Shown one piece after another: positions 61,568 to 64,000 of a stretch of DNA of 64,000 bases (the first letter of the stretch is position 1; each line of letters starts with the position of its first letter). This DNA is from Methylophaga sp. (lineage in GTDB: Bacteria; Pseudomonadota; Gammaproteobacteria; Nitrosococcales; Methylophagaceae), in contig JAGXHJ010000034.1 in NCBI GenBank assembly GCA_024636315.1, forward strand, positions 27,016 to 91,015, in the 5' to 3' direction. The position numbers were made by a program, and so were the translations under genes. The notes below the pieces were generated by a model. That model did not search any database, was not told the DNA's origin, and saw only the letters and a list, made by a program, of their open reading frames with translations.

Positions 61568-62821
61568 TTATTTTTCTATTTGTTCTGGTCGACCTTCACC
61601 TAAAGCACCATCTGAACGCGCTTTTAAGTATGCATAAAGGTCACTAATATGCGGACGAATATTTGGATCGTCAGACCACGTTGGCATTTTAAATTTAGTT
61701 ACACCTTGTTCACCAGCAACTTGGCTCAAAAATGCTAGGCGACGATCTGGGTCATCCAAATTTACCTTGGCAAAATAACGATGCAATACTTTCTTCCTAA
61801 ACTTAAACTCACTCATACCTTCAAGACTTGTCAGTAAATTGGGTGCTATATCAGTTCCAGTTGCGTTTTGACCATGACAGACAAAGCAAGTTGAGTTAAA
61901 TAAACGCCAACCTACGAATGTTTTATTATCAACCTTGCCATTTTCAATGGTATATACCGCTCGTTTTGTCTTCTCAGTGTGTTTCACGTTGGCTAGCGAA
62001 GGCATATTGTATTGTGCAATAATTGTTGCGATATCGTCTTTACGTTTTTCTAAAATCTGATTTAGAAGGCTTTGCCACTCCGCATCTTGAGGACGAACCC
62101 CCATACCAAAGCTAAACACGTAATCTGAGCCAATTTCATTAAGTGGCACCACAGTCATCGCAACATCTGATTGAGAGGCATAAAAACCAGCAACAGGTCC
62201 CCATGCAAAGGCAACATCAATGCGGCCAGAGGCTAATTCTTCAGTGATTATTCGACCACTATTAATACGAGCATCACCCGGCATCATTTGAAAATATTGA
62301 ATGTGATCTTCAAGACCATCTTTTATCAACGTTTCTGTTGCTATGGCGCGATCAAACAAGCCAATTTTCAGTTTTTTGCCTTGTGCGTGTAATTTAGCAA
62401 TATCTGATATTTCAGTTAACTCATAGCCCTCGCCTTTACGGTAGACCATCGAATCGATCGAGCTAAAGTAGGGTGTCGTGGGTAAATACATTCCTCGTTC
62501 TGCAGGAATACTCATCGCGACATCACACAAAAATTTTCCGGTTTGAGGATCAACTTTTTTAATCGTATTGCGACTAAAGCCAATTCGCTGTGGGAACCAA
62601 TAATATTCAACTGGTAGCCCTAATTCTTCACCAACAATAGTGGCGATCTTATTATCAAAGCCTTCTAACGCTTTATTGGAATATGGTAAATTAAAGGCAT
62701 CGGCACAAACTTTTACTGAAGTTTGCCCTGGCAAAGGTTTAAAGTCTGCAGCATCAGCCATAGTAGTAATGCAGATCAAACCTACAAAAAGGTATGAGAA
62801 TACCCTAGTTATTGTCATCAT
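61568..62821 (-). CDS. XoxJ-like binding protein fused to a c-type cytochrome (XoxG role)
   Basis: About 417 residues from ATG 62821, five bases after AAGGA (ATG 62818 also possible). A signal peptide ends near MADA. Residues ~30-280 are MxaJ/XoxJ-like: VKVCADAFNLPYSN, CDVAMSIPAERG and LASGRIDVAFAWGP, a periplasmic-binding-protein fold. The C-terminal part (~300-400) is a c-type cytochrome with C312-F-V-C-H316 and a likely axial Met379 (KMPTW). XoxG-type cytochromes accept electrons from XoxF, and XoxJ is thought to help its maturation. The fusion supplies both on one chain. Distance to xoxF, 190 bases upstream, contains a terminator and a long inverted repeat. Confidence 0.88.
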   Translation of the reverse strand: MMTITRVFSYLFVGLICITTMADAADFKPLPGQTSVKVCADAFNLPYSNKALEGFDNKIATIVGEELGLPVEYYWFPQRIGFSRNTIKKVDPQTGKFLCDVAMSIPAERGMYLPTTPYFSSIDSMVYRKGEGYELTEISDIAKLHAQGKKLKIGLFDRAIATETLIKDGLEDHIQYFQMMPGDARINSGRIITEELASGRIDVAFAWGPVAGFYASQSDVAMTVVPLNEIGSDYVFSFGMGVRPQDAEWQSLLNQILEKRKDDIATIIAQYNMPSLANVKHTEKTKRAVYTIENGKVDNKTFVGWRLFNSTCFVCHGQNATGTDIAPNLLTSLEGMSEFKFRKKVLHRYFAKVNLDDPDRRLAFLSQVAGEQGVTKFKMPTWSDDPNIRPHISDLYAYLKARSDGALGEGRPEQIEK

Positions 62822-62867
62822 TAATTCCTTATTCAATTAAAAGTGCAATGTACACTAACATGTACTC

Positions 62868-62926
62868 TGACCATAGCCATCAATTAAATATCCCTAATTG
62901 GATCTTTTAATTGATGGCTATGGTCA
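62868..62926. repeat. Perfect 21-bp inverted repeat between xoxF and the fusion gene
   Basis: Positions 62868-62888 are the exact reverse complement of 62906-62926, with a 17-base spacer (arms begin TGACCATAGCC and end GGCTATGGTCA). In the xoxF transcript direction it comes after the terminator and 47 bases before the fusion gene's start codon. It may form a hairpin in RNA or serve as a dyad-symmetric protein site. Confidence 0.93.
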
Positions 62927-62935
62927 TAAAATCAT

Positions 62936-62966
62936 AAAAAAAAAGCCCGACACAAGTGCCGAGCTT
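62936..62966 (-). terminator. Strand-specific rho-independent terminator of xoxF
   Basis: On the minus strand, AGCTCGGCAC pairs with GTGTCGGGCT through ten base pairs including two G-U wobbles, with a tiny loop, then nine T. On the plus strand these positions are mismatches, so termination acts on xoxF transcripts only. It lies about 45 bases beyond the xoxF stop. Confidence 0.88.
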
Positions 62967-63012
62967 CTTTATTAAGGTTTTATCTATTAAAAAAGATTAA
63001 TAAATAAAGGTC

Positions 63013-64000
63013 TTATAGGCTAAATACGCTTAAGATACCACCCAAGTTAGTCCAGCTAGATAGCGCTTTGTAAGCACCTACCGCACCAAGACCATCTGTG
63101 TCGTTTTCTAAGCTAGGGATAGCCATACCGATACCAGCCCAACCACCAACACCAGACAAGACTGAGACGAACTGTTTGCCATCATGCTTGTAAGTGTTCA
63201 CGTTGCCGATGATACCTGACGCAGTTTTGAATCTATAAAGCTCACGACCTGATTGAGCATCGACTGCTTTAAGATAACCTTCTAATGTACCGTAGAACAC
63301 AAGATCAGATGCAGTAGCTAACGCACCACCCCATGCTGAGAAACGTTCTGGGTTAGACCATACGATCTTACCTACACGTGCATCCCAAGCAATGAAGTTA
63401 CCTAAGTGTGTGCCACCTGGTGCTGGGTACATGTTTAATGTCGCACCAACATACGGTTGACCCGCAGTGTATTCAACTTCAAACGGTTCATAATCCATAC
63501 ATACGTGGTTTGTTGGAACATAGTACAAACCAGTACGTGGAGAGTATGCAGCCGGTTGTTGATCTTTAGAACCTAATGCAGCAGGACAAATACCTGTTGT
63601 ATTTACATCAGCGCCGTTACGAGCCGTTGAGTATTTAGCAACACGATCATGAAGACCTGTTTTAAGATCAACACCGTTAGACCAGTTCACTGCTGGATCG
63701 TATTTTTGAGCGACTAACAATTCACCCGTTACGCGATCCATGGTGTAACCAAAACCGTTACGATCGAAATGCACTAACGTTTTACGCATTTTACCGTTGA
63801 TTTTTTGATCTGCTAAAGGTACTTCATTGATACCGTCATAATCCCATTCATCGTATGGCGTCATTTGGTATACCCATTTCGCCATACCTGTATCTAAATC
63901 ACGACCAAATAAAGACATGGACCATTTGTTGTCACCAGGCCGTTGTGCAGGGTTCCATGTAGATGGGTTACCTGAACCGTAGTAGAACATGTTCAAATCA
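63013..64000 (-). CDS. xoxF: Lanthanide-type methanol dehydrogenase XoxF, C-terminal part
   Basis: About 329 residues are visible; the gene continues beyond the right edge, so the N-terminal part (including the vicinal cysteines) is not seen. The PQQ-dehydrogenase beta-propeller repeats are clear ([41 protein letters not shown]). In PYDEWDYDG (63835-63852) the catalytic Asp is followed two residues later by another Asp; calcium MxaF has alanine there, and XoxF has aspartate for lanthanide binding. It oxidises methanol in the periplasm using PQQ. The fusion gene downstream holds its likely electron acceptor. Confidence 0.92.

Follow-up and report, generated by a model that had tools for sequence, protein, structure and literature searches.

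A XoxJ domain joined to a long-loop, XoxG-like cytochrome c next to xoxF in one genus of Methylophagaceae

Introduction

The methanol dehydrogenase XoxF passes electrons from PQQ to the cytochrome XoxG. The role of XoxJ is debated, with activation, maturation and the mediation of cytochrome contact all proposed. XoxJ has been suggested to bind apo-enzyme XoxF and help activate it (PMC12997753), and both XoxJ and XoxG are required for XoxF-dependent growth of M. extorquens AM1 (PMC7391723). In Methylacidiphilum the operon reads xoxF-J-G:J; the J of its XoxG:J protein is truncated, and the operon holds a full xoxJ as well (PMC6688271). XoxG:J is carried by Methylacidiphilum strains (PMC8498564), and as cytochrome cGJ it is the described electron acceptor in M. 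fumariolicum (PMC12235487).

Here we describe a fusion in which a complete XoxJ-type domain precedes a cytochrome c domain. It lies in a 64,000-nucleotide stretch of DNA (herein the window) from a marine, methanol-eating organism; the fusion is real and conserved.

Results

The window contains an uninterrupted reading frame at 61568-62836 (-); taken from its ATG start the gene occupies 61568-62821 (-) and encodes 417 residues plus a stop codon. Its hydrophobic N terminus (MMTITRVFSYLFVGLICITTMADA; approximately residues 1 through 24, 62750-62821 (-)) reads, from the sequence alone, as a Sec-type signal peptide. A XoxJ-type periplasmic binding domain (residues 36 through 276; 61994-62716 (-)) is followed by a 12-residue linker (residues 277 through 288; 61958-61993 (-)) and an XoxG-like mono-haem cytochrome c domain (residues 289 through 417; 61571-61957 (-)). 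The latter contains the haem-binding motif CFVCH (residues 312 through 316; 61874-61888 (-)) and Met379, in KMPTW (61685-61687 (-)), which is the probable axial ligand based on its alignment to the Met-Pro motif of XoxG (PDB 6onq). The first-pass annotation had described a XoxJ-like domain running without a break into a CFVCH cytochrome, and the reading frame and domain matches bear this out; the gene lies on the minus strand, which that annotation had left unstated.

The two halves differ in how closely they match curated models. Residues 36 through 276 align to positions 2 through 232 of the 232-position MoxJ/XoxJ profile TIGR03871 (E 1e-62), scoring 211.5 bits alone and 213.2 bits in the genome search against a cut-off of 212.15, and match XoxJ (PDB 6onp) with E 1e-34. 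The cytochrome domain matches 6onq (E 5e-13) and, partially, the XoxG-like model TIGR03874 (E 8e-19), where its 67.8 bits fall below the cut-off of 161.75, and we therefore call it XoxG-like. This model is a narrow one, since the two standalone XoxG-type proteins of the same genome also score below that cut-off (66.4 and 63.6 bits). A first structure model from 15 sequences was poor (pLDDT 53); a second AlphaFold model, from 34, gives a confident J half but a G half of only moderate confidence. The J half superposes on 6onp with Z 23.4 (2.0 Å over 208 residues), followed by 5sv6 (Z 23.3) and 9ism (Z 20.4), the last a solved MxaF/MxaJ complex, so that both the full-length profile and the fold identify it as XoxJ/MoxJ. 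J-domain matches filled the fold search, and the fold evidence concerns this half only.

The gene lies directly downstream of xoxF, of which the C-terminal 328 residues are present (63013-63999 (-); TIGR03075, E 1e-119); the contig ends at its position 91015, the last base of the window, and truncates xoxF there. A second Asp in the DYD motif is typical of lanthanide-dependent XoxF, and it is present in this neighbor (WDYDG). In every relative with a long enough flank, xoxF is likewise immediately upstream of the fusion. A terminator-like hairpin with a T run (62936-62970 (-)) separates the two genes, and a similar hairpin occupies the same place in the relatives examined; it may keep the fusion gene, which follows it, at a lower level. 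Upstream of the fusion there is also a perfect 21-bp inverted repeat (62868-62926, no strand assigned), the sole copy in the genome; among relatives, locus L005 has a paired change on both arms and in L006 the repeat is degenerate.

The assembly is incomplete (rpoB was not found in it). Contig C58, whose end is position 64000 of the window, and contig C26 both end in xoxF copies with 141 identical bases in common, and each overlaps the start of contig C68 by 115 bases. The break at xoxF was thus probably caused by near-identical xoxF paralogues. A further xoxF-like gene (contig C6; L059, 4108-5648) is split over two frames, being either a pseudogene or an assembly error.

Because the window comes from a metagenome-assembled genome whose contig breaks off in xoxF, a spurious joining of two genes during sequencing or assembly had to be considered. 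The search for homologues with both domains proposed in the first-pass annotation returned, from a scan of species genomes, 14 further loci with the same open J-G frame, all in metagenome-assembled genomes and all within one Methylophagaceae genus. Their proteins are 65 to 94% identical to the window protein, the junction is uninterrupted in all 15 fused genomes, and C312, C315, H316 and M379 are invariant. Pairwise dN/dS values are mostly 0.04 to 0.15, alike in the J and G halves, which indicates purifying selection on both. The open junction in 15 assemblies together with low dN/dS excludes the missed frameshift that had been named as a possible refutation, and leaves an artefact a negligible probability.

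The fusion is confined to part of one genus among the 57 Methylophagaceae genomes searched. It occurs in 15 of the 29 genomes of the window's genus, its own included; three of the others have an unfused J and 11 have no close J match. The other three genera, with 28 genomes, lack it throughout and carry an unfused J or none, unfused XoxJ being found in Methylophaga and two other genera of the family. Records of named fused relatives are labeled Methylophaga, Piscirickettsiaceae or Gammaproteobacteria. There was no J-G fusion among the matches listed from a plasmid collection, nor among those listed from a sample of the class, where the other long XoxJ reading frames proved to be over-runs of the upstream frame and had no cytochrome.

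A second type of XoxJ fusion was seen in Methylophagaceae and other Gammaproteobacteria, comprising a XoxJ-like domain and then ankyrin-type repeats (541 to 609 residues, read by eye; L250, 4327-6021; L252, 2360-4078; L253, 1972-3801; L254, 1854-3479). These genes adjoin a divergent PQQ alcohol dehydrogenase.

In an alignment of the junction, the XoxJ end of the fused proteins, PSLANV, leads through approximately 12 residues to YT.ENGKVD, where the cytochrome begins. From that XoxJ end onward, most unfused relatives have only a K-rich tail and a run of Asp, so the linker stands where the unfused XoxJ has its K/D-rich tail. In the unfused genome NORP53 the end of the following gene lies 37 bp beyond xoxJ, and the surrounding gene order is as in the fused genomes. 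The alignment and this gene order point to addition of the cytochrome at the 3' end of xoxJ. Loss of a stop codon in an ordinary xoxF-xoxG-xoxJ operon is an unlikely origin, as on plasmids of Azospirillum, Azoarcus and Phyllobacterium such operons have G ahead of J, and in Methylophaga J has no neighboring G.

Separate trees of the two domains, a check that the first-pass annotation had called for, gave a single clade for the fused G domains (support 98/96) but not for the fused J domains. In the J tree the unfused proteins of NORP53, NORP60 and NORP65 are nested within the fused ones, and a single fused-J clade is rejected (AU p 0.0001), which implies losses, replacements or recombination. 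A species tree from polA and aspS was unreliable, polA mixing genera; aspS alone likewise intersperses unfused with fused genomes. Taken together, a G domain of single origin and the nesting of unfused J suggest that one fusion occurred and was then either lost or replaced in some lineages or spread through recombination. The unfused J proteins keep the ancestral tail, which favors replacement or recombination over simple truncation.

The ordinary XoxG of the family is a standalone CARCH protein, conserved across Methylophagaceae. The window's genome holds two standalone XoxG-type genes, one for a soluble protein of 135 residues (contig C91, 351-758 (-)) and one for a protein of 236 residues with an N-terminal membrane segment (contig C44, 6517-7227 (-); L043); at least one is also kept in the other fused genomes examined. 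The 236-residue protein has a long acidic, Ala/Val-rich spacer, and many genomes of the genus encode similar anchored XoxG proteins. Identity between the fused domain and the standalone XoxG of its own family is only approximately 30%. Its haem His and Met are 59 to 63 residues apart in the fused proteins versus 39 to 46 in 42 standalone XoxG proteins of the family; the approximately 24 extra residues form a long-loop region (approximately residues 340 through 376; 61694-61804 (-)), predicted with modest confidence as two helices.

The G tree, built on a short alignment (115 columns) and with some long branches, agrees with this division. The 15 fused domains do not group with the lineage's own XoxG, which forms another clade, but with three stand-alone cytochromes (100/96) that share the long loop and come from other gammaproteobacterial families, none of them adjacent to xoxF. 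By loop length and phylogeny, the fused cytochrome is of a long-loop branch distinct from the XoxG usual in this lineage, and it resembles an extra cytochrome held on a tether. The earlier reading of the gene as XoxF's acceptor fused to XoxJ thus stands in part: there is a real J-G fusion next to xoxF, but its cytochrome is not the XoxG of the lineage.

Discussion

Our preferred reading, to which we give a probability of about 60%, is that the J domain docks on XoxF and that the haem tethered to it receives or relays the electrons of XoxF, in addition to the ordinary XoxG. The product would be a single protein, secreted to the periplasm, in which both domains are functional. Its XoxJ domain, at the N terminus, would bind XoxF in the way that MxaJ binds MxaF and that is proposed for XoxJ when the apo-enzyme is activated, while the C-terminal cytochrome would hold one c-type haem (His316/Met379) on a short linker. 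Docking would place this haem beside XoxF, where PQQ could reduce it while the enzyme is being activated or afterward; the electrons could then go on to the soluble or membrane-anchored XoxG, or to an oxidase. The fused haem would then be an added or alternative electron outlet that does not replace ordinary XoxG. In origin, a long-loop XoxG-like cytochrome would have been joined to the 3' end of xoxJ in a Methylophagaceae lineage and later lost or replaced in some descendants. Electron transfer through the fused haem is what we infer from sequence; the retention of standalone XoxG makes an added outlet or relay more likely than a sole acceptor. It is conceivable, though doubtful, that the long-loop cytochrome, tethered by XoxJ, provides the lanthanide methanol dehydrogenase with a second way out for electrons that is coupled to activation and runs besides XoxG.

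The fused cytochrome might instead be the main acceptor of the adjacent XoxF, in the manner of Methylacidiphilum cGJ (PMC12235487), with the standalone XoxG proteins serving other dehydrogenases or downstream steps. No other XoxG-like domain lies beside this xoxF, and in one relative (G013, 99% complete) the fusion adjoins the sole PQQ alcohol dehydrogenase found at full length; even so, G013, with that single full-length XoxF, still has two standalone XoxG genes. Members of the genus with an unfused J, and Methylophaga, have XoxF with standalone XoxG only, and the family-wide conservation of standalone XoxG likewise speaks against a main acceptor in the fusion, which we consider rather unlikely. 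The first-pass annotation had held that a separate standard xoxG, as the true acceptor, would count against a fused acceptor. Two standalone XoxG-type genes are indeed present in the genome, and the true acceptor may be one of these or the fused domain.

Quite improbable, in our judgment, is a role of the cytochrome half in redox sensing or quality control for XoxJ during XoxF activation, in place of bulk electron transport. The haem is attached to a maturation or binding domain and not to XoxF, the hairpin between the genes is expected to lower the level of the fusion, and XoxJ has been proposed to act on the apo-enzyme (PMC12997753); however, the haem ligands and the family are those of an electron-transfer cytochrome. 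Against the tethered outlet itself, standalone XoxG may be the sole real acceptor and the fused haem may have another role. The fused domain is far from any XoxG tested experimentally, and its nearest stand-alone relatives are not beside xoxF. Moreover, three genomes of the genus manage with an unfused J and 11 have no close J match.

A natural XoxJ chain that carries a haem favors J acting where electrons leave XoxF. The occurrence, within one genus, of genomes with and without the fusion, and of standalone XoxG alongside, makes a direct comparison possible.

No J-G fusion was reported in the open-access literature covered by our text searches, and subscription journals may hold an earlier description. 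Compared with described proteins, residues 36 through 276 resemble XoxJ and MxaJ (6onp, 5sv6, 9ism) in fold and sequence, but those proteins have no cytochrome. The C-terminal half shares its mono-haem CxxCH, Met-Pro axial motif and a conserved C-terminal Y.YLKAR(S/A)DGA.G region with XoxG of M. extorquens AM1 (6onq) and the standalone XoxG of Methylophagaceae, but differs from standalone XoxG in its longer His-Met spacing and its own branch. Its group includes the long-loop cytochromes of other Gammaproteobacteria (L119 through L121; loop of 67 to 71 residues, 39 to 45% identity), with no characterized member found among them; unlike the fused domain, these are stand-alone genes away from xoxF. 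Cytochrome cGJ of Methylacidiphilum (SolV, Kam1, V4) is alike in joining XoxG-type and XoxJ-type domains in one chain beside xoxF. A TIGR03871 profile search gave no second XoxJ in the window's genome, whereas Methylacidiphilum has a second xoxJ in its operon. The first-pass annotation had taken J-then-G, if distinct, to mean a separate fusion event. The arrangement does appear distinct, its order being opposite to XoxG:J as written (PMC6688271), and a separate fusion event is most likely: in the window's protein a complete J leads, and the genome has standalone XoxG genes besides the fusion, whereas the Methylacidiphilum protein, by that paper's notation, is G followed by a truncated J.
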